Shown here: positions 2,215 to 24,019 of the stretch, one piece after another | Layout: each line of letters begins with the position of its first letter | How positions within the stretch are numbered: position 1 is the stretch's first letter | Translations under genes and position numbers: made by a program | Notes under the pieces: generated by a model | The model's input: the letters and a program-made list of their open reading frames with translations, nothing else | Database searches by the model: none | Told to the model about the DNA's origin: nothing | NCBI GenBank assembly: GCA_017649745.1 | Contig: JAGCGE010000208.1 | Location: 1 to 24,313 of the forward strand | Length of the DNA: 24,313 bases | Origin: Clostridiales bacterium | GTDB lineage: Bacteria > Bacillota_A > Clostridia > Saccharofermentanales > Saccharofermentanaceae | Direction of reading: 5' to 3'

Positions 2215-3384
2215 ATGTCTATACGGAAAAATACGAGAAAAGAAAATGGTAGCGGTTCCATAAGAAAACGCAAAGATGGCAGATGGGAAGGAAGATATTC
2301 TATTCCTGCAAAGGACGGTAGCGGAGCATATATACGTAAATCCGTATATGGTGATACTCAGGAAGAAGTCCGTAAGGAACTGACAAGGATTATTAACGAG
2401 ATTGACGAAGATACTCACATTGAACCCGTTAATATAAAGTTAGGGATCTGGATCGATGATTGGATGAAATTATATGTCGCCAATACCGTTAAGCAGCTCA
2501 CCTATGACCAGTATGTTTGCGAATGCAATCACATAAAGAAAGAACTGGGAAAGATAAGACTTAACAACCTTAAGTCTTCGCATATACAGGCTTTCTACAA
2601 CAAACTTCTTAATGTAAATGGTCTATCACCTAAGACAGTTAAGAATATTCACGGTGTGCTTCACAAGGCTCTGGATCAGGCTGTGGAACTGGAATACATT
2701 AAATCGAATCCGTCTAACAAATGTAAGCTTCCTAAAGCCAATAACAAAGAATTCCACCCGCTGGAAACAGATGAGATCAGCAGATTTCTTGAATTGATCG
2801 ATAAAGACAGATTTAAGAACCTGTTCTACACTACCCTATTCGTTGGATTGAGACGAGGAGAAGTATTAGGATTAACATGGGATTGCGTAGACTTCGATAA
2901 CTGCACCATAACCATTAATAAGCAGTTGAAAAAGGATACTCATTACGCAAATTACAAGTACATCCTGGATAACACTAAAAACTCTAAATCTCGCACCATT
3001 AAAGTGGCTACTCCGGTTATGGTAGTACTAGCCGATCAAAAGAGATGGCAACAGAAGGCCTCAGAATGCGCTGGAAGTGCTTGGAACAATGAAATGAACT
3101 TGGTCTTTACCAACGAGCTCGGACGCAATCTGACGCATGATATCGTGTATAAATCGTATAAGAAGATTGTTACTGAACTTGGCAGGCCTGATTTAAGGTT
3201 TCACGATCTTCGCCACACCTACGCAACGATATCTATTGAGGCTGGTGATGACATCAAGACAGTTCAGGGAAATCTCGGACATGCTACAGCGAGTTTTACT
3301 CTTGATCGCTATGGTCACGTATCAGAAAAGATGAAGCTCCAATCAGCTCAGAACATGGAGAATTTCATCAACAAAGTCAGTTGA
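2215..3384 (+). CDS. int: Tyrosine recombinase (integrase)
   Basis: A 389-residue site-specific recombinase of the lambda/Tn916 integrase class. Residues about 10-70 form an AP2-like arm-binding domain (GSGSIRKRKDGRWEGRYS). Residues about 75-165 form the SAM-like core-binding domain. The C-terminal catalytic domain shows R213 in GLRRGEVLGL, H330 and R333 in HDLRHTYA, H356 in NLGHA and the nucleophile Y366 in DRYGH, so the main catalytic residues are present and the enzyme should be active. The start has AAAGGAAA just before ATG. Directly downstream are two 12-bp repeats (candidate arm sites), a hairpin, and a tRNA 3'-end attachment core at 3485. That is the usual order for an integrase sitting at the edge of its own element. 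Confidence 0.95.
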   Translation: MSIRKNTRKENGSGSIRKRKDGRWEGRYSIPAKDGSGAYIRKSVYGDTQEEVRKELTRIINEIDEDTHIEPVNIKLGIWIDDWMKLYVANTVKQLTYDQYVCECNHIKKELGKIRLNNLKSSHIQAFYNKLLNVNGLSPKTVKNIHGVLHKALDQAVELEYIKSNPSNKCKLPKANNKEFHPLETDEISRFLELIDKDRFKNLFYTTLFVGLRRGEVLGLTWDCVDFDNCTITINKQLKKDTHYANYKYILDNTKNSKSRTIKVATPVMVVLADQKRWQQKASECAGSAWNNEMNLVFTNELGRNLTHDIVYKSYKKIVTELGRPDLRFHDLRHTYATISIEAGDDIKTVQGNLGHATASFTLDRYGHVSEKMKLQSAQNMENFINKVS

Positions 3385-3678: not shown

Positions 3679-4479
3679 TTACCTGTTTTTCTTCACTAGT
3701 AGTTTTATGTTTTCTACAATTTGTTTCTCTAGAATATCTAATTCATCTGTATTGCAATTGGATATTTCTTCCGAATACGCATCGATCACTAAGCTGATAT
3801 TCGAACAAATCTTCCGTTTCGCTCTTTCACTTAACAGAATATAGTTTTCTTCAAACTGCTTATTCATGTTATATGCTTCAAAATCAATATTACGGCACAT
3901 TTTGTTACATTCTTTTTCCGTTAAAATGCTATTAATAAATAATGCATCAGCCTTTTTTGTTAATTCTTCAATAACCTTTTGTCGTACTACTTCTTCATCG
4001 TGTAATTCTCCATAATATACAACAAACAACTTGGATATATGTAACACAACACTTGTATATATGATTATTCTAGAAATATCATTAACAATCTTTTTTGACA
4101 TTTCTTCAGGGTCAATGTTTATCCCAAATTCGTCAAATGCCTTTCTTTTGTATATTGCTAAATAAACTGCTCTTTTGCAAAATCCATATAGTTCATTTTG
4201 ATACAATTGCTTTTTCGTCTCTGTACCAAAGAAAACTATTTCTTCAACTATATTGGAAATATTAGTTCTCGATTCTGCTAATATACCAATATATTGATTT
4301 ACGATACAATTATATTCTGTATATAAACTTTCAATAAGAGACAGCTCAAAAGTTTTTTCTTTATCCTTACGCAGTCTTATGTCAGCTTTAGAATTATTAA
4401 CTAATAATGATACAACTGCAATAATTGAAGGAAGAGAGGCAATTAACCCTTGCAAAAATGCTGAAAGATATTCATTCAT
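3679..4479 (-). CDS. Membrane-anchored helical protein of unknown function
   Basis: A 266-residue protein I do not recognise. Residues about 8-27 are hydrophobic (LQGLIASLPSIIAVVSLLV) and would give one N-terminal membrane segment. A short basic stretch (DIRLRKDKEK) follows, then a long, almost entirely helical soluble part rich in Ile, Lys and Glu. No catalytic motif is visible. AGGTGG precedes the ATG at a normal distance. It lies first inside the island that begins at attachment copy 1 and is read away from the AlbA-type gene by about 190 bases of AT-rich DNA. Its codons are more AT-rich than those of the integrase cassette, which fits separate acquisition. A sensor or effector of a defence locus is possible, but nothing in the sequence shows it. 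Confidence 0.6.
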   Translation of the reverse strand: MNEYLSAFLQGLIASLPSIIAVVSLLVNNSKADIRLRKDKEKTFELSLIESLYTEYNCIVNQYIGILAESRTNISNIVEEIVFFGTETKKQLYQNELYGFCKRAVYLAIYKRKAFDEFGINIDPEEMSKKIVNDISRIIIYTSVVLHISKLFVVYYGELHDEEVVRQKVIEELTKKADALFINSILTEKECNKMCRNIDFEAYNMNKQFEENYILLSERAKRKICSNISLVIDAYSEEISNCNTDELDILEKQIVENIKLLVKKNR

Positions 4480-4668
4480 ATTTTTCCACCTGCCATTTCT
4501 TAATAAACATTTTTATAACGAAGAAATAGGTGCCGATTAACATGTAAGCATTATTACTGAGTAGACATTTCTTTTGAGTATTTTTTTATTCTATTTAGTT
4601 ATCTTCTTATTACTATTTTCTTCATCTTATCTCGCTAATCCTATAACAACTCCAACGATTTAATTCTT

Positions 4669-6111
4669 TTACCCTTCATTTACCATTTCCGGATTGGTTA
4701 GATAACACGACGCTCTCAACACCTTGCTTTTAATGAGATATCCATTCTTTTCCAGATTTCCCAATATTTGTTTGCGCAAATATGTAGAATCACTCAGGCC
4801 AAGATGAGCGGCTATTTCAGCAACTTTGCGAGCTTTCTTATAACAAAACACTAATGTTTTCTCATCATGCTCTGTTCCATTCGGAACTGGTATATAGGTA
4901 AGTGATGTTGTTGAGGCATCTAATACGCCTTCTTCGTAAGTCATATCTGGAAGCACTAATGTAAAATGATCAGATGTGGAATAAATATACGGTTTATGAG
5001 TTTCATCCGCATTGGCATATTCTTCCATAATTTTATCAAATCCAGTTCCAGCTGCTTCCATAACATTACAAGCAACAAGCACATTGGATATTAGTTCATT
5101 TCTGCGTTTAGAGATTACACAGGAAAGGTCATAAGTTTTTCCGATTTTCTCTCCCCTATAGAATCCTCCCGGAGAAGAAATCTCCAATCTATCTTTGAAC
5201 ATGTCTATTTGAATCTGCGTTCCGTCAAGATAATAGTCTCTGTGTGCGACAGCATTTACTACACCTTCAAAAAGTGCTCGTGTTGGATAGGAATCAATAT
5301 TAACTCTGTTCTTGCCAAGCTTTATCATGGAATGGTTCATTCTCATGGCTACAAAATCCATTATGCAGTTAATCGTATTGATCAGATTACCATTAAATCT
5401 GTTCACTGTAACAATTCTTTCGCTACCTTTAGTAAAACCTGCGAAAACCGAACACATAACTTCTGTCTTAGTCCCAATATAATTGTCTGTAAATAAGACC
5501 GCTCCGTTAGATAAGTATCCATCTTCGTTTACGAAGCCCATAGAACTTAGAAGCTTGTTTGTCATTTTTTTGCCATTATTCTGAGCTGCATAGTATGAAC
5601 TAAGTATAGTTATTTTAGTGGGATCATATTTAACATCAGATACGAGAACATCGTACTGTGTATTCTTACTCTTTATGCTCATGTCTATTATTTCTTCATA
5701 TGTCGCTCCATTGGTAAAGCCATCCCTTCGCATAAAAATTGATGGAATATTCTTATACTTCAAAATAATTGGTTTTACTTCCGATTCCGAAACTGTAACT
5801 CTAATAACATAACGCTCGCGCTTTCTGACCGAATAAGGTAAAAAAGTAATCTTTATTGGTGGTCTGGGAGTTATGTGTTCGTTTACCTGATTGTTGAAGT
5901 AATTGCGTTCATTATCTGCTGCTATTCTATCAAAACCAATCAATTTATTTGTCTTATCCTCAACTCCAATATACATATCACCGCCAGACGCATTTGCAAA
6001 ACCTGCTATTGTTTTGAGCCAACCAACCACATTCTCGCGGCTTAAGATACTCTTGCATTCAATTGCGCTATTCTCAATCTGAACATCACCGATAATCTCT
6101 TCCAAATACAT
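4669..6111 (-). CDS. AlbA_2/Schlafen-type putative DNA-binding ATP-binding protein
   Basis: A 480-residue protein with the layout of the AlbA_2 / RecG-like ATP-binding family. The N-terminal AlbA_2 (Schlafen AlbA) domain is at about residues 10-130 (AIECKSILSRENVVGWLKTI, ANASGGDMYIGVED). An HATPase_c_4-like domain at about 270-370 carries the N-box-like EGVVNAVAHRDYY, and a winged helix lies at about 425-475 (KVAEIAAHLGLSDSTYLRKQ). Family members are mostly thought to be DNA-binding regulators; some sit in phage-defence loci. GGAAGGAGA stands nine bases before the ATG. The upstream region has repeated ACTTCAAAG boxes that look like an operator, so self-regulation is likely. The gene appears intact and of normal length. 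Confidence 0.85.
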   Translation of the reverse strand: MYLEEIIGDVQIENSAIECKSILSRENVVGWLKTIAGFANASGGDMYIGVEDKTNKLIGFDRIAADNERNYFNNQVNEHITPRPPIKITFLPYSVRKRERYVIRVTVSESEVKPIILKYKNIPSIFMRRDGFTNGATYEEIIDMSIKSKNTQYDVLVSDVKYDPTKITILSSYYAAQNNGKKMTNKLLSSMGFVNEDGYLSNGAVLFTDNYIGTKTEVMCSVFAGFTKGSERIVTVNRFNGNLINTINCIMDFVAMRMNHSMIKLGKNRVNIDSYPTRALFEGVVNAVAHRDYYLDGTQIQIDMFKDRLEISSPGGFYRGEKIGKTYDLSCVISKRRNELISNVLVACNVMEAAGTGFDKIMEEYANADETHKPYIYSTSDHFTLVLPDMTYEEGVLDASTTSLTYIPVPNGTEHDEKTLVFCYKKARKVAEIAAHLGLSDSTYLRKQILGNLEKNGYLIKSKVLRASCYLTNPEMVNEG

Positions 6112-6245: not shown

Positions 6246-6470
6246 TTAAAACACTCTGTGTCCCCTGGATTCAATTACATTTGCAGTCAAAAGTTGCTTT
6301 CTTCTGAAGACTACAAAATGATCATCATCCGTGAATATAGTAAGTCCTTCTTGGAACCCCATTGAAAGATTTCTTTGAGGAGGAAAGACTTTGCTTAGTT
6401 TGAGATCGGCTATCTTTTGGGTAGCATGAAATAGAAGTTCATTCTTATAGACATAATTTCCTTTGATCAT
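6246..6470 (-). CDS. Small unknown protein, perhaps frameshifted at its 5' end
   Basis: A 74-residue frame from ATG at 6470, just downstream of the AAA ATPase gene and on the same strand. The same frame stays open upstream to the end of the ATPase gene and reads like protein (GILIWAAGAVDIGREFVDGY) but offers no usable start codon. Right after the ATPase stop, a different frame has an ATG that opens only 20 codons (MDFYRIDIQ...) before a stop. The simplest reading is a gene of about 100 codons, translationally coupled to the ATPase and now split by one frameshift. The C-terminal part has a FTDDDHFVVFRRKQLL stretch. I do not recognise a family. Confidence 0.4.
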   Translation of the reverse strand: MIKGNYVYKNELLFHATQKIADLKLSKVFPPQRNLSMGFQEGLTIFTDDDHFVVFRRKQLLTANVIESRGHRVF

Positions 6471-6558: not shown

Positions 6559-7950
6559 CTAATTTGTTACTGTTAAGTTGTGACTGACAATTTGCTGAAG
6601 CTTCTCCTCGTTAAAATCAGGAAGAACATCTAATGTTCCGTCAAATAGGGCTTCATAAATCTTCTTGTCCGCTCGAAGTTGATACTTGTCGAGAGACTTT
6701 ATAATTGTCGAACCGGCTGCTGTTTTTATCATAAAACTGATCTCATCATTTCTAAGAAGATCATCCTTCAGCAATCTGGACTCATGTGTTGAAATAATCA
6801 GCTGTGTGTTACGGTTTTCTGCCATCTGTAAGAACAACTTTATTATTTTTGTCGTCATCGCCGGATGCAGACAGCGGTCAATCTCATCAATCACATAAAT
6901 ACTATCATTTGAAATCTTAAACAATATTTCTATCAGATCAAGCATACGTGCCGTCCCATCAGACTCCTCATTCAAATTAAAGTAAATACTCTGAGCTTCA
7001 TGTTCGAACTCAATTGTTTTAATGGATACATTGTCCTTCTCATCGATTTCAAATGTGTAGAACTCTTTAGCAGCTCGCGCCATGATAGAAGGAAGCATTT
7101 TAGTTCCTTCTTTTTTCATCTTAGCATTCACTTTTTCCAAATCTGCAATTATACCGTTGTAGAGATCTTCAGGTATTTTGCTCTTTACCACTTCCTGAGG
7201 AACTTCCACAATCCTGAGATTACTTATTCCAGTTCCCAGAGCATTCAAGACATCTGCGATTTCCTGAAGATTGGAATCCCTGAAATACGGATAACCCTTC
7301 AACATGTCTTCAGGAAAACTTATGGTTAGCCTTCTGTGAAACCATATATCAATCGCGCTCAGAATTCTGAGTTCGGGATAATCTGAAAACATTTTTCCTT
7401 TACTTTTATTGATAATAGTAAGGAAAAGGTTTTCATGATCGTTTGCACTGTCTTCCCCGTAGCTCTTTATTTTTGCGATTGCTTCTTTTCCTTTAAAAAA
7501 TTCGCCAGTTGTAAAAGACTCTTCGGTGACATTTCTTTTATAAAGGTACTTCTTGAGACCTGAAGGAGTCGTTTCATACAGCCATTCTTTTTCGATACTT
7601 CCGGTATTCAATACTGCAGCAAATCCAAAGCAAAGCCGCTTATCCTCGCACAAAAACTCCATCTCAAACTCAGACGGAGCAAGTCGATTTTCTTCATTAA
7701 GGCGGTAGTAGCAATTTGAAAAACCTTTTGGAAATCCATCTCTTTGAACAGCTTGAACAAAACGTAATGCTTTAATAAGATTGGATTTTCCAGATCCATT
7801 CGCTCCGAATAGCGCTTCACATTTCACAAGTCGCAACCTGCGGTTTGTATATATACGACTCGAATTCTTTCGAGCTTTGCCGGCTTCCAATGAAAATTCT
7901 TGCTTCCCATCAAATGACAAAAAATTTGAAACGGCGAATCGGATCAACAT
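6559..7950 (-). CDS. AAA family ATPase (COG1106/AAA_15-21 type)
   Basis: A 463-residue SMC/ABC-like ATPase. It has an N-terminal FxxF start (LIRFAVSNFLSF), Walker A GANGSGKS at about residues 49-56, Walker B YVIDEIDRCLHP near 353-358 followed by a His-rich turn, and an H-switch segment LIISTHESRLL near 385. Enzymes of this class occur in phage-defence and anti-plasmid modules, usually with a partner nuclease or small protein. Here the only close partner is the small frame at 6246-6470. I prefer the ATG at 7950, which has GGAG six bases upstream; the ATG four codons earlier sits only three bases from its purine run. A consensus promoter at 7986-8014 drives it, divergent from the MBL operon. 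The gene looks intact. Confidence 0.85.
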   Translation of the reverse strand: MLIRFAVSNFLSFDGKQEFSLEAGKARKNSSRIYTNRRLRLVKCEALFGANGSGKSNLIKALRFVQAVQRDGFPKGFSNCYYRLNEENRLAPSEFEMEFLCEDKRLCFGFAAVLNTGSIEKEWLYETTPSGLKKYLYKRNVTEESFTTGEFFKGKEAIAKIKSYGEDSANDHENLFLTIINKSKGKMFSDYPELRILSAIDIWFHRRLTISFPEDMLKGYPYFRDSNLQEIADVLNALGTGISNLRIVEVPQEVVKSKIPEDLYNGIIADLEKVNAKMKKEGTKMLPSIMARAAKEFYTFEIDEKDNVSIKTIEFEHEAQSIYFNLNEESDGTARMLDLIEILFKISNDSIYVIDEIDRCLHPAMTTKIIKLFLQMAENRNTQLIISTHESRLLKDDLLRNDEISFMIKTAAGSTIIKSLDKYQLRADKKIYEALFDGTLDVLPDFNEEKLQQIVSHNLTVTN

Positions 7951-7985
7951 TTCGATCTCCATCCTTTCCTTTCAATTGCTTTTGA

Positions 7986-8095: not shown

Positions 8096-8124
8096 TTGAC
8101 TTAGTCTGCTTGACATGGTATAGT
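8096..8124 (+). promoter_or_regulatory. Sigma-A promoter of the MBL/4TM operon
   Basis: TTGACT (8096-8101), exactly 17 bases, TATAGT (8119-8124). The predicted RNA start near 8131 puts the CIRCE-like operator at the very start of the transcript. It points into the MBL-fold gene and is divergent from the AAA ATPase promoter. Confidence 0.65.
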
Positions 8125-8134
8125 TCTTTATGGA

Positions 8135-8161
8135 TTAGCAAACGAGATAAAAGAGTGCTAA
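8135..8161. promoter_or_regulatory. CIRCE-like HrcA operator
   Basis: TTAGCAAAC, nine bases, then GAGTGCTAA. The known CIRCE element is TTAGCACTC-N9-GAGTGCTAA: here the right arm is perfect (9/9), the left arm matches 7/9, and the spacer is exactly nine. It sits just after the -10 box, where HrcA normally binds to repress dnaK and groE. This implies heat or misfolding-stress control of the MBL operon. Confidence 0.7.
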
Positions 8162-8225
8162 TCAACATGAATTCTATTAGCCACTTTAGTGGGTTGACAT
8201 ATACAACGAGGAGGGCTTTTAAACA

Positions 8226-9097
8226 ATGATTGTAGAGTTTCTCAGTTCAAATAACTATAGCATCCTAGCCAAAACAACGGTGATTGTATCATAGTTGATA
8301 ACGGCCGGGATCTGGTCATCTATGACTGTGGTTGTGAAGAACATGCCAAACGGGTAGAAAAATACATGGAAGAGCACAACTATAGTAAAATTAGGATCGT
8401 GCTGTCCCATAATGATTCCGATCACTTTATGGGAATACATTACCTGGTAGATCAAGGTCTTGTCAGCAATGTTTATACACTACTTCTGTTCAAATATAAA
8501 GATGAGTTGTTGGATATGATAGACGACAACCGCAGAACAAGAAAGTCCATCACCAAAAGAATTGAAGAGATCTATGACAATATCTACTCGCTATCCGATC
8601 GAGTAGAATTGAAGGATATGTTTACTGAAAAAGACGTTGCGGACAACATCTTTATTATCGGCCCCAATAAAGACTACGCTCTGAATGCCGTGGCCAAGAA
8701 TATTGACAGTAGAGAAGGGGATACCATCGACAAAGAAACTATTGTGAATGCAGTAAGCGCTCAACTATCAGTTGGGTTTGGATACGGCAAACGGCTTTTA
8801 CTGACCGGCGACAGCAGCTTTAAATCTATTGAGGATGCAATAAAAACACATTCGGCAATCCAACTCCCCCATCATGGGAAATTGGAACAAGCAGAATCCA
8901 TCTTTGAAGTCAAGGATAACTCCACCGCTTATTATGTTTCAGATAATACTGGTGACAGTAACGGTGGTTCGGATGACTTAAGAAGAAAGCACTCCCGCGG
9001 GCACATCATTTATAATACGATTGATGGAGATCAGATTTGTACCGATTCCGCTTTGGCGACATCCCGTCCCAAAAGTTCATATTATTTTGGGCGGTGA
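8226..9097 (+). CDS. MBL-fold metallo-hydrolase (ComEC/Rec2-like), one frameshift near the start
   Basis: A metallo-beta-lactamase-fold hydrolase of about 290 residues if read through one frameshift. The ATG at 8226 follows GAGGAGGG and gives MIVEFLSSNNYSILAKT, then reaches a stop at 8292. The rest of the protein (NGDCIIVDNGRDLVIYDCG onward) is in the -1 frame, open from 8261 to 9097. One extra base near 8271-8278 (AAAACAACGG) would join them into the usual MBL N-terminus. Metal ligands are visible: HNDSDH in VLSHNDSDHFMG, the Asp of LLTGDSS, and the His pair of QLPHHGK. These fit a two-metal phosphodiesterase or nuclease. It is the first gene of an operon under a CIRCE-like operator. No slippery heptamer is visible, so mutation or sequence error is more likely than programmed frameshifting. 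Confidence 0.75.
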
Positions 9098-9103
9098 TAG
9101 GAT

Positions 9104-9538
9104 TTGAGATATTTGGTACATCATACTCAGGCTTCGGAAATACCCGGCCGGCAAGAGTATCTTTACGACATTTTTCACATATACTTTCTTCCGAGTACCG
9201 AAGTGGGTTCTTATATACCCCTAATCCCCGTTGGGAGGTTTGACCTAGATGTTGTTTTTATATCAGGGCATGCGAATTATGTGATGCAGTATTTGAACAT
9301 ATATATTAATGATATTCCAGAAACAATAATTGTGGCAACGACATGCTTATCGTGGCAGTTGATGAAATTTAAACGAAAAAAACAGATATATGTTCCTATG
9401 TCAAAAGAGGATTATTGTTATATCTACGATGGACGACCTTTCGGATTCTCTTTTGATATATCTGATCCAGAACTCGATTTTTATAATTCTTCCGGCGATT
9501 TTATCGCAAGACTACAGTCCTCATACCGTCTGTTATAA
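9104..9538 (+). CDS. Unknown protein, second gene of the MBL operon
   Basis: A 144-residue protein I do not recognise. It starts at TTG 9104, six bases after the MBL stop, with AGGA just before it, and ends at a TAA whose bases run into the ribosome binding site of the next gene, so translation of all three genes is probably coupled. It is rich in beta-type stretches (LDVVFISGHANYVMQYLNIY, ETIIVATTCLSWQLM), with a basic patch (KFKRKK) near residue 100 and an acidic C-terminal part. There is no signal peptide or clear membrane segment. Position suggests a regulator, sensor or adaptor between the hydrolase and the membrane protein. The TTG start is the least certain point; an ATG start would remove much of the conserved-looking N-terminus. 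Confidence 0.6.
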   Translation: MRYLVHHTQASEIPGRQEYLYDIFHIYFLPSTEVGSYIPLIPVGRFDLDVVFISGHANYVMQYLNIYINDIPETIIVATTCLSWQLMKFKRKKQIYVPMSKEDYCYIYDGRPFGFSFDISDPELDFYNSSGDFIARLQSSYRLL

Positions 9539-9550
9539 GGAGGTTTCAAC

Positions 9551-10249
9551 TTGAAACTAGACATTTTAGATGCATATAACATCAGGGCAAGACTTAGCCC
9601 AAGCGTAATACTGCTTGGACCTATTGCTTTAACCATTTTTTTCTGTTTTGAAGGGCTTTATTCCAACATAACCTCCGCACTTACGTTATGCATCCTACTC
9701 GCTCTATCTAATTGCGTTCCGATCATACAGCGACGTTTGGCACCGCCCAACAAAAATCCAGAGAACTATGCCGCAAAGTACCTACAGCATGATGACACTA
9801 CAATAGATCGAATCTCAAAGAAAAGGTATTATAAAAAACTCACTGAATTGGAGAATGCCTTTTCTGGGTTGAGTACCCATTCCTCCTCTCAAGAATTTCA
9901 CAATCTTTGTGAAAGCGCCGTGATATATCTGAGGAACAATACCCGAGATAATCATCTTGTACTTGAAGAGAATATCAACTACGGCTTCTGCAAAAATATG
10001 CTAATAAATAAACCTATTGGAATTATTATCAATATTTGTCTTGCCATGTTCACAAGTATCTTCTCTATCTCTACTTATGGAGCCTTGGAGCACATACCTA
10101 GTCAGAACATACTCTCCTTTGGAATTAATATTTTTTTCATCTTATTTTGGATATTTGGCATTACAAAAAAGATGCTAGAGGAAGCCTCCAAAAGATATGC
10201 TTATACCTTGATAGTTGCTATCGATTCGATCCCCACAAAAAAGGACTGA
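9551..10249 (+). CDS. Four-TM membrane protein, third gene of the MBL operon
   Basis: A 232-residue protein starting at TTG 9551 with a perfect AAGGAGG seven bases upstream. Hydrophobic segments lie at about residues 18-36, 41-59, 154-174 and 184-204, so two hairpins of TM helices are separated by a charged cytosolic loop of about 95 residues. This resembles four-TM effectors that permeabilise membranes in some immune systems, but I cannot place it in a named family. The stop TGA (10247-10249) follows the A-run at 10235-10242 directly. The heptamer A AAA AAG (10237-10243, in frame) could allow a -1 shift that would add 35 residues encoded downstream. It overlaps the next, broken frame, which may be its C-terminal part or a fourth gene. 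Confidence 0.7.
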   Translation: MKLDILDAYNIRARLSPSVILLGPIALTIFFCFEGLYSNITSALTLCILLALSNCVPIIQRRLAPPNKNPENYAAKYLQHDDTTIDRISKKRYYKKLTELENAFSGLSTHSSSQEFHNLCESAVIYLRNNTRDNHLVLEENINYGFCKNMLINKPIGIIINICLAMFTSIFSISTYGALEHIPSQNILSFGINIFFILFWIFGITKKMLEEASKRYAYTLIVAIDSIPTKKD

Positions 10250-10712
10250 CTAATGATGATATAAGCAACTTCATTGAAGCAATTAAGGGACATCAATTCG
10301 AGAACGCTAATTGGAACAGAAAAGTGTATGAAACCGTATCTATTTTTTAACTCGATATAGAAGTAATGAAATATTCAATGAGCGGTCTAGTTACTTTTCT
10401 GATTCGAATTCCGATACTGATTTATCTGATAGTTCACGACAGACGATGGCATATTATTCCTTTTTCTATAAGTACTTTTTTGAACTTTCGACTGAACAAC
10501 CGGTTTTTGATCCAAATACATATAATGCATTTTTGAAACGAAGAATACAACTTTCTAAAGAAAGGGCGAAAAAGGTTGAAGAAAAGACCCAAAATATAAA
10601 AGTAAAACTAACCAATACTCTAAGAGAAGTTGAACTAGATTTTCAAGAAAATGGAGTAGATGCAAGCGAGGAAGAATTATTAGCAGAACTTGTTCGCAGA
10701 GTAAGGGGATAG
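10243..10712 (+). pseudogene. Charged helical protein or C-terminal domain, frameshifted
   Basis: Two frames read as one protein of about 155 residues. The first (GLTNDDISNFIEAIKGHQF to VYETVSIF, 10243-10350) ends at a TAA right after a run of six T. The second continues in the -1 frame (LTRYRSNEIFNERSSYFSD to ELVRRVRG, to 10712) with a Ser/Asp-rich link, an aromatic patch and a long charged C-terminal helix (RRIQLSKERAKKVEEKTQ). One extra T at 10343-10348 restores continuity. No ATG fits the first frame; the ATG pair at 10253-10258 has a good ribosome binding site but soon stops. So this is either a fourth gene with two lesions or the cytosolic tail of the four-TM protein reached by frameshifting. 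Function unknown. Confidence 0.45.
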
Positions 10713-11190
10713 TATCTCTCTTTTTCCCGAGCGTTTGTATTGATCTACAATTTTACCACTATCTAAAACATATACTGAGTCGCAAAGCTCATTTATATCC
10801 TCCATATGATGACTTGCAAGTATAATAGACTTTTTTTCATTTTTAAGTTCCTTAAGAATTGTTTTTACATCAACTCCCTTGTTATCTGAACCATTCATTG
10901 GCTCATCCAATAATAGTATCTCTGGATCCTCCATTATGGCTTGAGCTATTCCTAATCTTTGCCTCATTCCAAGGGAATACTTGCCATCTCGTTTTTTTAT
11001 CATTAGGATCAAGTCCAACATATCTAATCACTTTGTAAATCTGTTCTTTATTAATTTGCCCTTTAATATCAGCTAAATATTTCAGATTCTTGTATCCACT
11101 CATATTGGGAAGAAATCCTGGTACTTCTATAATTCTCCTATGGACTCAGGAATCTCTACATCATAATCCACTTGTTTTCCCAACACGAAT
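10680..11190 (-). pseudogene. Decayed ABC transporter ATPase (BcrA-like)
   Basis: The C-terminal two thirds of an antibiotic-export-type ABC ATPase in pieces. Recognisable parts in order are VLGKQVDYDVEIPESIG (near 11187), IIEVPGFLPNMSGYKNLKYL, a signature-like SLGMRQRLGIAQAI, Walker B EILLLDEPMNG and the switch IILASHHMEDI. Two frame changes separate them: one in GGAGAATTATAG near 11130, and one at the run of seven T (plus strand, 10992-10998). The Walker A region is missing altogether. The 3' end overlaps the convergent gene by about 30 bases. No partner permease is present, so it is dead. From 11191 to 11372 I see only fragments and a TTTGGGGTCAAA box. Confidence 0.75.
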
Positions 11191-16252: not shown

Positions 16253-17137
16253 TTACATTTTTATTGTAGACAATTCAGTTTTCCAATCTTTAGGAAACCC
16301 CAATAATCCGAGTTCAATATCAGAATACTTACTCACAAGTGCCTCTAAATCATCTAAAAACCGATTCCAGTGTAAATCATCATTAAGGAGCTGCCTCATG
16401 CAAAGCAAAACTGCGTATATCCTATCATTTGAAATTCCCTGTTTGGTATATTGTTTGTAAAGTATAGGCCGCTTTGCAAGTTTTGCATTGTATAGTCTTC
16501 CATAATGAGCACATATATTTCGAACATAAGAAATGGATTCGATCCAACTTTCATAATATGTATACCCAACACCGAAAGTCTTAGCCACAGCTTTCTTGTC
16601 GGGATTCTTCATGTTTTTGAAGAATTTTGATAGCATTCCGAAACTGCAAATTTCCACCAGTGCGTATAAAGGTAAATCCCCGCCTTCATAATTGTTTTGA
16701 AAATTTTTAACAAAAGGAGCCTTTGCGTTCCTTCTTATTTCATCTTTTATATCTTCCAAAAACTGCTTGTGATATCCCTCATCTGCAAAATTATTAGATT
16801 CCTTATATCCCAACACATCATATTGTTCAGAAAAATAATTAGCTATTCTGCATCTAGCATTAATTTCTATTTTTTCAATCAGTGGATAAAGTAATTGTCT
16901 GAAATTGGCGTTGAATAGATATAATCCAACAATATGTTCAAAAGTCACACCTGGATCGAAGCATCCATTTTTCTTCTTTAATCTGAGGCAATAAGCCTTT
17001 ATCAATCGAAAGTATGATATATCATTAAGAATATCTTTGGCATACTTTTCGTCTTCGATTATCAAACCTAATTCTTTTAAATTTTTTATCTGTTCATCAA
17101 CTGTCATCGGTGGTTGATGTTGTTTCAACTGCTTCAT
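16253..17137 (-). CDS. Abi_2 family protein (AbiF/AbiD-like, HEPN RNase type)
   Basis: A 294-residue protein of the Abi_2 family, known from lactococcal abortive-infection proteins AbiD and AbiF. Typical blocks are present: an N-terminal TVDEQIKNLKELGLII, DISYFRLIKAYCLRLKK, FNANFRQLLYPLIEKIEINA, and the HEPN motif RNICAH (R206, H211) followed by YGRLYN. The R-X4-H motif marks a likely RNase active site, so the protein may cut RNA during phage attack and stop growth. The length is normal and the frame intact. It follows, on the same strand, a short structured leader that ends in a terminator-like hairpin at 17155-17201. Some Abi_2/AbiF genes are reported to be paired with small RNA antitoxins and to be related to Cas13 ancestors; this arrangement fits that pattern. 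A weak AGGGTG precedes the ATG. Confidence 0.9.
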   Translation of the reverse strand: MKQLKQHQPPMTVDEQIKNLKELGLIIEDEKYAKDILNDISYFRLIKAYCLRLKKKNGCFDPGVTFEHIVGLYLFNANFRQLLYPLIEKIEINARCRIANYFSEQYDVLGYKESNNFADEGYHKQFLEDIKDEIRRNAKAPFVKNFQNNYEGGDLPLYALVEICSFGMLSKFFKNMKNPDKKAVAKTFGVGYTYYESWIESISYVRNICAHYGRLYNAKLAKRPILYKQYTKQGISNDRIYAVLLCMRQLLNDDLHWNRFLDDLEALVSKYSDIELGLLGFPKDWKTELSTIKM

Positions 17138-17520: not shown

Positions 17521-19329
17521 CTAAATCAATCCTATAAACTCATTTACATTATGCCTTAGATGGTCAATCTGTAACCATTGTATTTTATCCCAATCACTAT
17601 TTTCAGGGGTAATCTTGTTCAATTTATCTAATAAATCCTTAAGCGCTCCTTTATCAGATTCATCATACGTACCTTTCGGAATTCCAGTGTAAACGGAAAT
17701 AAGAATATCACGAAAACAACTTATTTGTTGAGCTGTGCAGTTAATTAGCATAGTTATAATCTTTTTGTTATCTAGAATGCATATAAAGTGATGTTGCATC
17801 ATATATATGTGTTTATTCTTTTGAACATTTTGATAGAAACTCTCAATATCCTCCGGTTTATACGAAAAAATAGCATTACTATTGCTTTTATCTATCGCCT
17901 CAGCAAACTTCTTCATAAACTCCTGATACTTGTTCATCACAACGCCATCATCAGAAATCTTTGTCATCAAACCCCATATTATCTCTTGTGATGAAGAAGG
18001 ATGCGTTTTGCACATATTTATAGTATTGGAAATCATTTGTAAACATATTGGTTTAGTATCATAATCAATAACAACACCCGCTCTAATAACTTCTAACGCT
18101 AACTGCTCGTATGCATGAATACATAAATAGTTTGTTTTCTTTATTTTCGTCTGAATATTGTCCAATGCTTCTTTTACATCTACTTCTTTCTGAATATGGA
18201 AGTTCTTTATAATATAAAGATCTGGGTCACTCTCGATAGATGCTTTTTTCTCAAAAAAACAAAAATCAACATATTCAGCCGACGCAGCAATAATATCATC
18301 CACGCTATATGTATTTAACAAAAGATAATCATATATAAATTTAAATAAAGGTGAACTTGATTCTCCTAATTGAACAGAAATACATTTTGTCCCTTCCCAT
18401 CTTGGAATATCAGAACACAGAAAATGTTTTGAAACAATGATTGCACCTTTTAGTGCTACCTGATAAAATGCATCCTCAAATTTCTTGTCGATATCTAGGT
18501 TAGAGAAAATATCATTACATTTTTGAAGCGCATAGATCAGTATGCGTAAATTATTGTGGCAATGAGTTCTTACGATATTGGCTATCTTTTCGATTTCATC
18601 ATCTCGCGAAATGGCGCTAAGCCAATTCTCAGAATATTCATTTACGATACTTCTCACTGATTCACTAATATCAACCTTGAACTGGACTGTATCACCAATG
18701 GTTTTTTCCTTCATTCTAAGGTAAGGGATTTGTCGGTCATATTTATTTGTTTCTTCGGTCTCATCTATCAGAGACGTAAAAGAACTTGAAAAATCATAAT
18801 CAAAAGATTCATTGTTCTGCCCCAATATCTCCTTTTCATTTGCTACAAGTAACACCTTTGCACCATCATACTCTACCAATCCGTTGATATATCCTAATAG
18901 TAAAAGGGTATCTATCGAACTCCTCTCTAAATCCTCAAAAATAAGCAATACATCCTTGAGATTAATCGATTCGTATAACTTAACCAATTGATTCTCAGAA
19001 ACACCGATACTTATGCCTTTTAGAGGCAGTACGTTGTCTACTATATTATGTCCAATAATCGATACATATTCCTTTACTTCCGATTTTTTAGATAAAGTCG
19101 GAAGCCTCAACCTTAAATATACTCGTTTGCTCAATTCATTAAGATTATCAACACCATACAGAGAAACCACTACGCATTGAATTGCATTATCTTTCAAATA
19201 AGGGCATAGCGTTTTATTTACATAATACGATTTGCCTGAACCCCAATCACCTGTAAGTAGCATGGCTGTCTTCGGCCTGTATTGAGTAGCATATCTCTTT
19301 ATAAAACTACATAACTCTTCATAACTCAT
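17521..19329 (-). CDS. KAP-family P-loop NTPase
   Basis: A 602-residue STAND/KAP-type ATPase. Walker A GDWGSGKS is at residues 27-34 (AMLLTGDWGSGKSYYVNKT), Walker B VLLIFEDLERSS near 128-138, and a sensor-like KVLLVANEKEIL follows near 158-170. The C-terminal 350 residues are helical with no domain I can name and no membrane segments, unlike many KAP proteins, which insert TM helices. I start it at ATG 19329, with GAGG nine bases upstream; GTG and ATG codons two and three codons earlier overlap the ribosome binding site. KAP and similar P-loop NTPases are common in defence islands, acting as sensors or power units. The gene stands alone, next to the Abi_2 gene on the same strand. It appears intact. 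Confidence 0.8.
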   Translation of the reverse strand: MSYEELCSFIKRYATQYRPKTAMLLTGDWGSGKSYYVNKTLCPYLKDNAIQCVVVSLYGVDNLNELSKRVYLRLRLPTLSKKSEVKEYVSIIGHNIVDNVLPLKGISIGVSENQLVKLYESINLKDVLLIFEDLERSSIDTLLLLGYINGLVEYDGAKVLLVANEKEILGQNNESFDYDFSSSFTSLIDETEETNKYDRQIPYLRMKEKTIGDTVQFKVDISESVRSIVNEYSENWLSAISRDDEIEKIANIVRTHCHNNLRILIYALQKCNDIFSNLDIDKKFEDAFYQVALKGAIIVSKHFLCSDIPRWEGTKCISVQLGESSSPLFKFIYDYLLLNTYSVDDIIAASAEYVDFCFFEKKASIESDPDLYIIKNFHIQKEVDVKEALDNIQTKIKKTNYLCIHAYEQLALEVIRAGVVIDYDTKPICLQMISNTINMCKTHPSSSQEIIWGLMTKISDDGVVMNKYQEFMKKFAEAIDKSNSNAIFSYKPEDIESFYQNVQKNKHIYMMQHHFICILDNKKIITMLINCTAQQISCFRDILISVYTGIPKGTYDESDKGALKDLLDKLNKITPENSDWDKIQWLQIDHLRHNVNEFIGLI

Positions 19330-19439
19330 ATTCATCACCTCACAATAGCACAGAAATATTATATTATTCCAAAGGATACAATGATTGTATGTTATTGGCT
19401 ATTATTCAACAATTCTCATGCATCTCAACTAAATATGTT

Positions 19440-21196: not shown

Positions 21197-22048
21197 TCAA
21201 TACATATAACCACAATTTACAGAATTGTATCCCAAATACAAATTGTCAGTAGTTATATCATAACATTTATATGGAGAATTACTGTTTACATATCCAGCCC
21301 AAGGATCAGCGACGGCAACTTCTGATTTATCACTTTTTATGGAATATACAGTAACAAAATGAGCTGAAAGATTGAATGGCCATCCCAAAGTATCCAATTC
21401 TTTTACACCTATAATAGGAGGAGCATCGAAAGAATTAATTCCTACATAAAGGTCAGTTTTCATTTGTGCTTTAGTCTGTCCATACCTCTCAACATAATTA
21501 TTTATGGATTGTCTTCTATTTATATAGGAAGCCATATCATAAAGAGTAGTGCCAGAAGTAGATGAGGTATTGCAACCATTTCGAATAATTGATTCATAAT
21601 ATGTTGTGCCCGTAAGATATTTTAGAGCCATTTTTACGCATGCCGGACCACAGGAATAGCTCGTTTCTTGGGCGAAATAGCTAAAAGAACTCATGTTGCT
21701 CAATTGTATCCAATAGGCTCTGGTTGGTTCTTCTATTATATTTGTACTGTTGATTTCTTTGATATGAAATTGACTTAAATAAATATCTTGTTCTGAGGCC
21801 TCCATAGCTCCGCTAAAACCACTGATAATAGAAGAATTATTTCTTTGAACTAAAGAATAATCTGTATCATCTGTCGGTTCAAGACGATTTTCTTCAGATT
21901 CAGTATCCTTTATAATATTTTGAGAAATCATTATGTCGTGACAAGCGTTCTCTTCTGAATCTTCGTTATCATCAGCTATAACACTATTCGTAAAAGCGGT
22001 AAATATCAAAACAAATGTCATTAATACAGACATTAACTTTTTAAACAT
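21197..22048 (-). CDS. Secreted C39-like papain-fold peptidase
   Basis: A 283-residue exported protein. The N-terminal signal peptide is LMSVLMTFVLIFTAFTNSVIA. An acidic pro-region of about 85 residues follows, then a Peptidase_C39_2-like domain. The catalytic set is visible: YFAQETSYSCGPACVKMAL gives the oxyanion Gln and C133, SAHFVTVYSI gives H230, and VAVADPWAGY gives D248, the C39 order Cys-His-Asp(Pro). The size and Gly-Pro-Ala-Cys motif fit stand-alone secreted members, not bacteriocin-exporter domains, although the truncated ABC ATPase nearby (19.4-19.8 kb) is suggestive. AGGAGG stands eight bases before the ATG. A lipoprotein gene follows 45 bases downstream. The acidic pro-region could keep the enzyme inactive until export. 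Confidence 0.8.
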   Translation of the reverse strand: MFKKLMSVLMTFVLIFTAFTNSVIADDNEDSEENACHDIMISQNIIKDTESEENRLEPTDDTDYSLVQRNNSSIISGFSGAMEASEQDIYLSQFHIKEINSTNIIEEPTRAYWIQLSNMSSFSYFAQETSYSCGPACVKMALKYLTGTTYYESIIRNGCNTSSTSGTTLYDMASYINRRQSINNYVERYGQTKAQMKTDLYVGINSFDAPPIIGVKELDTLGWPFNLSAHFVTVYSIKSDKSEVAVADPWAGYVNSNSPYKCYDITTDNLYLGYNSVNCGYMY

Positions 22049-22531: not shown

Positions 22532-22990
22532 TCAATGCTCTTCTCCGTTTTCTATATTAAAACCTTCAACACTGATTTTCTCAGCAGCATCTGTATAAAA
22601 AGAAGCAAAACCTGACCATCCATTCTCTTGATCATACCTTATGATTATCTCTTTGGTATTATTTGAATCTGCATAAACTTCTTGTCCAACTTCCAAGTCA
22701 GTTCCACAAGCATGAAAATTTTCAGTAGGACTTATTTCCATATCAACTACTTCAATGTTTCCCACCAGAACATATCCAGCCGGTAATGTCTCATATATGC
22801 CCGTAGCGTAGTATTTATATAAAACTCCGTCATACATAACTTGAGGTTGTTCTATTTGTCCATTAGGAAGACCTGTTGGCGAAGATTCGTCTGATGGATC
22901 ACTTGAACAACAGACACAAAAAAACGACAAAAGAATGAAAATACTCAAAACAGATATTTTAAGCCATAACGACCTTTGACATGAAATCAT
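22532..22990 (-). CDS. Small lipoprotein overlapping the upstream peptidase gene
   Basis: A 152-residue predicted lipoprotein. A hydrophobic signal (LWLKISVLSIFILLSFFCV) ends in a Cys pair (27-28) of which one is probably lipidated; the lipobox is not classic. A short Ser/Pro-rich linker and a compact beta domain follow (MYDGVLYKYYATGIYETLP, YVLVGNIEVVDMEIS, then NFHACGTDLEVGQEVYADS and GWSGFASFY). The ATG at 22990 lies 32 bases inside the end of the peptidase gene in another frame, so translation is coupled. The surface location and tight coupling suggest a partner of the peptidase, perhaps an inhibitor as seen with the SpeB inhibitor Spi or staphostatins; that is inference, since I see no sequence similarity to them. 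Confidence 0.7.
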   Translation of the reverse strand: MISCQRSLWLKISVLSIFILLSFFCVCCSSDPSDESSPTGLPNGQIEQPQVMYDGVLYKYYATGIYETLPAGYVLVGNIEVVDMEISPTENFHACGTDLEVGQEVYADSNNTKEIIIRYDQENGWSGFASFYTDAAEKISVEGFNIENGEEH

Positions 22991-23897
22991 TGTATGAACC
23001 CCACGTTCTATAAACTATACTGGTTGAATGTCCATCAATAAGTTTAACAAAGTTTTGCCCTCCTATGGTGGATGTTCCAACACAAACTGTCATATGTCCT
23101 TCAGTAGAGCTATACGGACTTCCAGCAGCAAATCCCAGCAGACAGGGTCTATTCATAACTTCATTAAAAACATTTGTAAATGTCGGATTCGACTGATTAA
23201 AAACAGCTACTGCATAAGAAGAATTAATCCATACATAATCTGAAATCGTGTTAGGAATATTCGAATTATTATATCCACCATATCCAACAATTATTCCATT
23301 TACTTGGGATTCTACTTGTGAAAAGGTCATTCCGGATATTAAAGAAGAATATCCATTCATACCATGGTGCCACATTATATTACTTATTGCGCCTACTATA
23401 CAGTTATAACTACCTTGTAGATTGGGATAATAAGTTTGTATTGTGTTTTCTGACCTGTAAAAAGATAAGGTTCCATCTTCTTCAACGTAATAATACATAC
23501 CATTACAATAGCACATAGGGATGCAATTATGATATATGAAAATATAGGTAGTGTTTATTGTTTGTTGTATATTATCATATGGAGCAATACCTAAAGAAAA
23601 CTCTACTACATAATCGTCTTCACTACCAACTATAACATATCCAACATATTCATTGTTATTTATCACATAAAACAACACGTCAGATATCGTTGAAAGATCC
23701 TCCTCATATAGTTCATACGCAAATGATACTGAAGCATTTTCCCATAAAGAAAATTCTTCTTCCATAGAAATATCCTCAATAAATTTGCTAGCAGAACTAA
23801 TCTCATCTGAATAATCCAACTCATCTGCAACTACTACTTCACCACCAATAGCAAATAATAATGAAAGTATTACAAAACTTGATATTATTTTTTTCAT
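22959..23897 (-). CDS. Secreted papain-like peptidase (C39/C10-like)
   Basis: A 312-residue exported protein starting at ATG 23897, with GAGGTG at a normal distance and a clear signal peptide (KKIISSFVILSLLFAIGG); an upstream extension of the frame lacks these. A pro-region of about 130 residues includes a small beta unit (YVGYVIVGSEDDYVVEFS) like the propeptides of streptopain-type enzymes. The peptidase domain follows: YPNLQGSYNCIVGAISNIMW (oxyanion Gln, C166), EGHMTVCVGT (H268) and VKLIDGHST (D288). The order and spacing fit a papain-fold enzyme of the C10 or C39-like group. It is the first gene of a short operon with the overlapping lipoprotein gene. Cell-surface or extracellular proteolysis is likely; the target is unknown. 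Confidence 0.75.
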   Translation of the reverse strand: MKKIISSFVILSLLFAIGGEVVVADELDYSDEISSASKFIEDISMEEEFSLWENASVSFAYELYEEDLSTISDVLFYVINNNEYVGYVIVGSEDDYVVEFSLGIAPYDNIQQTINTTYIFIYHNCIPMCYCNGMYYYVEEDGTLSFYRSENTIQTYYPNLQGSYNCIVGAISNIMWHHGMNGYSSLISGMTFSQVESQVNGIIVGYGGYNNSNIPNTISDYVWINSSYAVAVFNQSNPTFTNVFNEVMNRPCLLGFAAGSPYSSTEGHMTVCVGTSTIGGQNFVKLIDGHSTSIVYRTWGSYNDFMSKVVMA

Positions 23898-23925
23898 AAT
23901 AACACCTCTATAACTTGTTTTCCTC

Positions 23926-23953
23926 GTATTAAAATGTCTAATTCTTCTTTCAA
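23926..23953 (-). promoter_or_regulatory. Possible promoter of the papain-like peptidase gene
   Basis: On the minus strand, TTGAAA (23953-23948), 16 bases, TAATAC (23931-23926), 28 bases before the ATG. It is a moderate match with a slightly short spacer. Confidence 0.35.
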
Positions 23954-24019
23954 AACACTTTGAGCAATCACAAAACCCACATTGGTCTGTACCTCCACTT
24001 ATCATGCCAAGGCAAATTC

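Follow-up and report, generated by a model that had tools for sequence, protein, structure and literature searches.

The closest described relatives of the locus studied here combine an enzyme of the metallo-β-lactamase (MBL) fold with a second protein. One report describes the MBLs of Hachiman and AVAST as pro-nucleases armed by a protease, and a caspase complex as the activator of the MBL nuclease in canu, with such pairs exchanged between systems (PMC12799240). The PADLOC collection also holds the candidate PDC-M48, which consists of a membrane protein (PDC-M48A) and an MBL protein (PDC-M48B). We analysed a stretch of 24,313 nucleotides from a Clostridiales bacterium (contig JAGCGE010000208.1; hereafter the window), in which three consecutive genes encode an MBL-fold hydrolase, a 144-residue protein (p144) and a protein with four transmembrane (TM) segments (TM4). 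A reading of the letters alone (the original prediction) had proposed these genes, followed by a charged helical frame, as an undescribed immune system. We compared the window with related loci, which are given L numbers.

The three genes are a conserved, recurring operon. All three open reading frames (ORFs) in the window lie on the forward strand and are coupled as predicted, with gaps of 6 bases between MBL and p144 and 12 bases between p144 and TM4. The co-occurrence check proposed with the prediction was run on 18 loci containing p144 and gave the same order; a membrane-protein gene directly follows p144 in 18/18, and MBL directly precedes it in 16/18 (15 uninterrupted copies plus the window), with intergenic gaps of -44 to +17 bases when the longest frames are taken. 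The two loci without MBL are L001, where the contig ends, and L003, where a transposase piece, which we take to be IS66-type, occupies the MBL place. Loci L001-L007 came from a TM4 profile scan of species genomes (L007 starts inside TM4), so that only p144 and MBL are independent tests there. L009 and L010 came from wider TM4 searches, L047 and L085-L092 from p144 profiles, and L011/L049 from a PADLOC model. The fair test of co-occurrence is therefore given by the nine loci found through p144 alone, and 9/9 carry MBL, p144 and a TM gene.

The constant pair is MBL and p144, and the membrane gene is exchanged among three types. TM4 occupies this position in the window, L001-L006 and L009. A shorter PDC-M48A protein occupies it in nine relatives (L047, L049, L085-L088 and L090-L092), two of which were assigned by PADLOC (4e-50 and 2e-48) and seven by BLAST to those two. 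In L089, the position is taken by a TM protein of 219 residues with no PADLOC or Pfam matches. The four TM segments predicted for TM4 were recovered as hydrophobic segments at about residues 15-33, 40-58, 156-174 and 187-205. A search at E<=0.001 yields 143 homologues for TM4. It has no Pfam family above its cut-off and no PADLOC match at E<=1, and its hhalign comparison with nine PDC-M48A sequences fell within the range of 40 shuffled decoys; i.e., no relationship was detectable. A hydropathy scan showed four segments in two hairpins in the membrane proteins of the window, L005, L009, L049, L086 and L089, and one or two of the four segments were below threshold in L010, L047 and L091. A locus in the same genome place as L010 (L050) has MBL and a distant TM4 relative, and p144 is absent. 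This two-gene form spans 6418-8103 of L050, and its MBL matches the PDC-M48B model PDLC04673 (5e-132).

The window system is thus a variant of PDC-M48 with the same core, another membrane part and p144 in addition. The MBLs are homologous, and in the nine relatives with PDC-M48A the gene order is the same, with a p144 homologue in between. The window MBL ORF matches the PDC-M48B model at E 8e-16; the same model matches 134/148 genomes, and so this match says little by itself. The kinship follows instead from the 35-49% identity of the MBLs of L002, L005, L006 and L009 to those of L047 and L049. What differs is the membrane protein, as TM4 is not detectably related to PDC-M48A, and p144, for which PADLOC gave nothing at E<=0.01 in any of the four loci scanned (window, L009, L047 and L049). 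The prediction had offered no named system for this set, but the set is partly listed, given the unnamed PADLOC candidate with its membrane protein and MBL. p144 is a newly noted conserved component, and what was a vague database candidate is now a module of three defined parts, in which MBL and p144 form the constant core and the membrane part is exchanged. No report on anti-phage activity of the MBL, p144 and membrane set was found in the searched open-access literature, preprints excluded, and paper listings on PDC-M48, 6A-MBL and membrane MBL operons yielded nothing of use.

The original prediction had called p144 an unknown protein. The ratios of nonsynonymous to synonymous substitution rates (dN/dS) against L001 were 0.11 for p144 and 0.13 for TM4, indicating constraint; judged by these ratios, both are real genes. 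A single-sequence search found 16 p144 homologues and a profile search found 165 at E<=0.01, and p144 matches its L047 homologue at 7e-15. All 18/18 loci keep Cys81 and 15/18 keep His56, and Cys81 and (mostly) His56 are located at the ends of adjacent strands. The set of 119 p144 sequences comprised the window protein and 118 of the best 120 of the 165 homologues, after removal of two shorter than 115 residues; the three loci without His56 lie outside this set. A caspase-like fold is suggested for p144. No Pfam peptidase was found in p144 (16 members, E<=10, with filters that drop most weak matches), and no CHAT match was found. We infer that p144 is a candidate activator of MBL. It gains a testable catalytic hypothesis (Cys81, His56) beside the published class of proteolytically armed nucleases.

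The MBL gene of the window had been called ComEC-like. It carries the motifs SHNDSDH, TGD and HHG, which we take to be a ComEC-type signature, and the metal-site motifs are invariant across 15 aligned relatives. Its frame, however, is interrupted in the window. The first frame begins at 8226 and meets a stop at about 8292, the remainder lies in a different frame that is open from 8261, and the listed ORF (8366-9097) has no N-terminus. None of the 15 MBL relatives checked, L002, L004, L005 and L006 among them, has an internal stop; therefore, the interruption is either a broken copy or an assembly error. Because the MBL frame is interrupted, the operon copy in the window may be inactive. The window MBL shares 64-68% identity with the MBLs of L002, L004, L005 and L006. 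The window ORF matches Pfam Lactamase_B below threshold (E 4.8e-4), and the intact relative in L005 matches it clearly (1.9e-11). Against NCBIfam, the window ORF had no match at E<=1. In 6/7 MBL relatives Avs1a outscored ComEC, and in L002 the two were tied, with all scores far under the cut-offs; the best relative against Avs1a, L047, reached 54 bits where the cut-off is 420 bits. The MBL is predicted to have nuclease activity.

A stress operator had also been predicted in the window, and a site resembling the controlling inverted repeat of chaperone expression (CIRCE) is indeed found behind a promoter-like sequence ahead of MBL. We assumed TTAGCACTC-N9-GAGTGCTAA as the consensus, and 0/200 mononucleotide shuffles of the window reached the window match. 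The predicted co-occurrence of the site with MBL held in part: besides the window, 2/16 related operons have a CIRCE-like site upstream of MBL, and none was seen in the other 14/16, two of which show merely 106 and 125 upstream bases. In L049, the site matches 17/18 arm bases (1 mismatch) and lies 9 bases behind the -10 box of TTGACT-17-TATACT; in L090, it matches 15/18 (3 mismatches) and overlaps the -35 box. L049 has an upstream ATPase 40% identical to that of the window and a different membrane protein, and the same kind of promoter. L002 has the TTGACT-17-TATAGT promoter and no CIRCE. Genome-wide, 72 sites at <=3 mismatches were counted in about 40.7 megabases of 19 genomes, and a reversed control pattern gave 5. 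At this rate, 0.008 sites are expected in the 4,431 upstream bases of the 16 other operons, compared with 2 observed; promoters are richer in such sites, so a fair expectation is several times higher and still well below 1. True CIRCE sites cluster at promoters. The L049 and L090 sites were the sole such sites in 234,287 bases of 19 loci. That is, the excess upstream of MBL is real but smaller than the raw numbers imply, because promoters hold more such sites than the genome average. As the site is absent from L002, L091 and L092, this putative HrcA operator appears to have been acquired more than once. With the site recurring, the question whether immune genes are controlled by chaperone stress can now be put. 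Among the open-access papers searched, preprints excluded, none naming CIRCE, HrcA and phage defense together was found.

An anti-phage role is the most likely one for this candidate module. We tentatively favour a mechanism, to which we give somewhat less than an even chance, in which the module is a mobile immune device linked to the membrane. The MBL DNase would be kept inactive while the cell is at rest. The membrane protein, together with the ATPase where present, would register phage attack (e.g., on the envelope or at genome entry), and p144, as a small cysteine protease or switch, would release the nuclease. The freed nuclease would then degrade DNA and bring the infected cell to a halt. 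Inactivation of HrcA would raise expression through the CIRCE operator in the window and L049. These roles are preferred because a constant MBL and p144 with a changing membrane partner fits the pattern described in PMC12799240. The systems covered there (Hachiman HamM, AVAST, Lamassu, DRT and canu) resemble the module in having an MBL of the same broad group beside a neighbouring protein (here small, with Cys and mostly His), and in a pair that is constant in a context that varies. They also differ from it: p144 has only 144 residues, whereas CanA of canu is described as bearing an immunoglobulin-like fold, and in canu the protease gene precedes the nuclease gene, whereas MBL precedes p144 here. 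A four-TM protein is constant in our loci, whereas the word 'transmembrane' is absent from the main text of that paper. As for a trypsin-like protease next to MBL, no Pfam peptidase was found in p144, the window ATPase or TM4. If the mechanism is confirmed, a membrane branch would be added to the class of proteolytically armed nucleases.

A bolder form of this mechanism would make p144 an unusually small caspase-like activator of an MBL pro-nuclease, wired to the membrane with exchangeable sensors. In the lineages of the window and L049 the module would have come under HrcA, and the defence would be armed by the demand that phages make on GroE. In the titration model, GroE keeps HrcA active (PMC8533110). 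We consider the complete chain improbable.

The model given with the original prediction reverses the roles, with MBL and p144 sensing or processing a signal and the four-TM protein opening or disrupting the inner membrane. We regard this as rather unlikely. The MBL is similar to those of a group whose toxic part is the MBL nuclease itself (PMC12799240), and a constant MBL and p144 with an exchanged membrane gene fits an MBL killer at least equally well. In addition, no constant cyclic-nucleotide synthase or other signal maker was recognised in the ORF lists, where a part of the neighbours was scanned, and TM4 has no Pfam family above cut-off.

Alternatively, the TM protein might hold MBL at the membrane, where phage DNA would be cut during injection without cell death. 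DNA at the membrane is what ComEC-type MBL domains act on, and here MBL and the TM protein are encoded together. SNIPE is described as a nuclease coupled to the inner membrane that works in this way; however, it is a GIY-YIG nuclease in a single polypeptide with DUF4041 (PMC13190303), whereas here two separate proteins supply the nuclease and the membrane part, with a third encoded between them. We find an anchored nuclease distinctly unlikely. The chance is still slimmer that the operon has no part in defence and serves stress response or maintenance in an integrative element: the CIRCE-like site, integrase-like ORFs near several copies (from reading of the ORF lists) and the XRE and ImmA/IrrE genes beside L090-L092, which are often part of the control of integrative and conjugative elements, would suit it, but most copies are without CIRCE and the neighbours differ by locus and are unrelated defence genes (DISARM, type I/II restriction, AbiL, AbiD), not a conserved set for transfer.

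The features of the window are collected in Table 1.

Table 1. Positions of the operon, its upstream signals and the neighbouring genes in the window.
Feature	Position	Strand	Basis and remarks
Promoter-like TTGACT-17-TATAGT	8096..8124	+	Sequence
CIRCE-like (HrcA-type) operator	8135..8161	.	16/18 arm bases, 9-base spacer; 10 bases behind -10 box
MBL-fold hydrolase, predicted DNase	8226..9097	+	Motifs, profile searches, relatives; frame interrupted 8261 to about 8292
p144, 144 residues	9104..9538	+	Small alpha/beta protein; candidate minimal caspase-like protease or sensor/regulator
TM4, 232 residues, four-TM	9551..10249	+	Two TM pairs around a central helical stretch; exchanged between loci
Charged frame	10446-10712		Weak: PADLOC BrxA 0.0016; Pfam DUF772 0.008-0.011 (below cut-off)
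ABC-transporter ATPase gene over two frames, apparently broken	10680-11103	-	Reading of sequence; adjoins operon 3' end
AbiL/AAA_21-type ATPase	6559..7962	-	Pfam AAA_21 5e-27, PADLOC AbiLi 4e-68; divergent from MBL gene
Schlafen/AlbA_2-domain protein	4669-6111	-	Pfam 1.5e-15
Tyrosine integrase-like ORF	2215-3384	+	Reading of sequence; fits mobile island
AbiD	16253-17137	-	PADLOC 7e-101
KAP NTPase, candidate PDC-S49	17521-19338	-	PADLOC 8e-46
Two secreted-looking, cysteine-peptidase-like proteins	21197-22048, 22959-24005	-	Reading of sequence; beside lipoprotein-like ORFs

The charged helical tail was rejected as a component of the operon; its matches are weak and it had no relative in the other fetched loci (tblastn E<=10). 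The upstream AAA ATPase had been treated as a mere neighbour. It is present as stated, but an AAA_21 ATPase recurs upstream in 6/14 loci whose upstream genes can be seen (L001, L003, L009 and L089 being left out), and it is a frequent but non-constant partner, i.e., an optional part. Divergent homologues of the window gene occupy its position in L002, at 83% identity, and in L049, at 40% along the entire protein, and a second AAA_21 family lies upstream and co-directional in L047, with relatives in L085 and L087. The match of the window ATPase to AbiLi likens it to AbiL and RloA-like ATPases; the difference is that it is divergent from an MBL operon, and no such ATPase was seen in 8/14 loci. 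No AbiLii/RloB partner was recognised adjoining it, with the small ORF at 6246-6470 left out of the scan.

In L004, L005 and L006, type I restriction genes and a gene resembling ISL3 transposases take the ATPase place, of which L004 shows only a contig-end fragment. The ISL3-like genes (L004 185-1492, L005 7118-8419, L006 7127-8455) are divergent and adjoin MBL, and in L005 and L006 they sit between MBL and the restriction genes. The L006 protein matches Pfam at 8e-6 (above cut-off) and NCBIfam at 1e-20 (below cut-off). This transposase-like protein may have been domesticated as a part of this branch. In L090-L092, divergent XRE and ImmA/IrrE-type peptidase genes lie upstream of MBL (by Pfam in L090 and by likeness in the others), and repeated AAATGTAA elements lie between these genes and the operon in all three.

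The defence-type neighbours and mobile island of the prediction are supported. The window is a defence-rich island, given AbiD and PDC-S49, and the scan of selected neighbours found AbiLi/AbiLii near L002, DISARM DrmA/DrmB near L003, a type I methylase near L005, and type I and II restriction with PDC-M04A near L006, L091, L092 and L047. The module is mobile. Its hosts found here are mostly gut Clostridia; the seven species genomes with TM4, most of rumen or gut origin, comprise six labelled Clostridia-type (Clostridiales, Oscillospiraceae, Eubacterium, Clostridia) and one Paludibacteraceae. Counting the centre genome each time, p144 prevalence was low (4/291, 2/398, 1/200, 9/191 and 1/115 genomes), as was that of TM4 (3/394), and a PDC-M48A model matched 2/98 genomes, one with a short weak match. 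No viral contigs with TM4 and p144 were found, and a search of plasmids with two p144 relatives found none. Finally, a protein beside the L090 operon (4163-5650) and the Schlafen protein of the window match the same PADLOC pAgo-type model (5e-28 and 1e-7, respectively).
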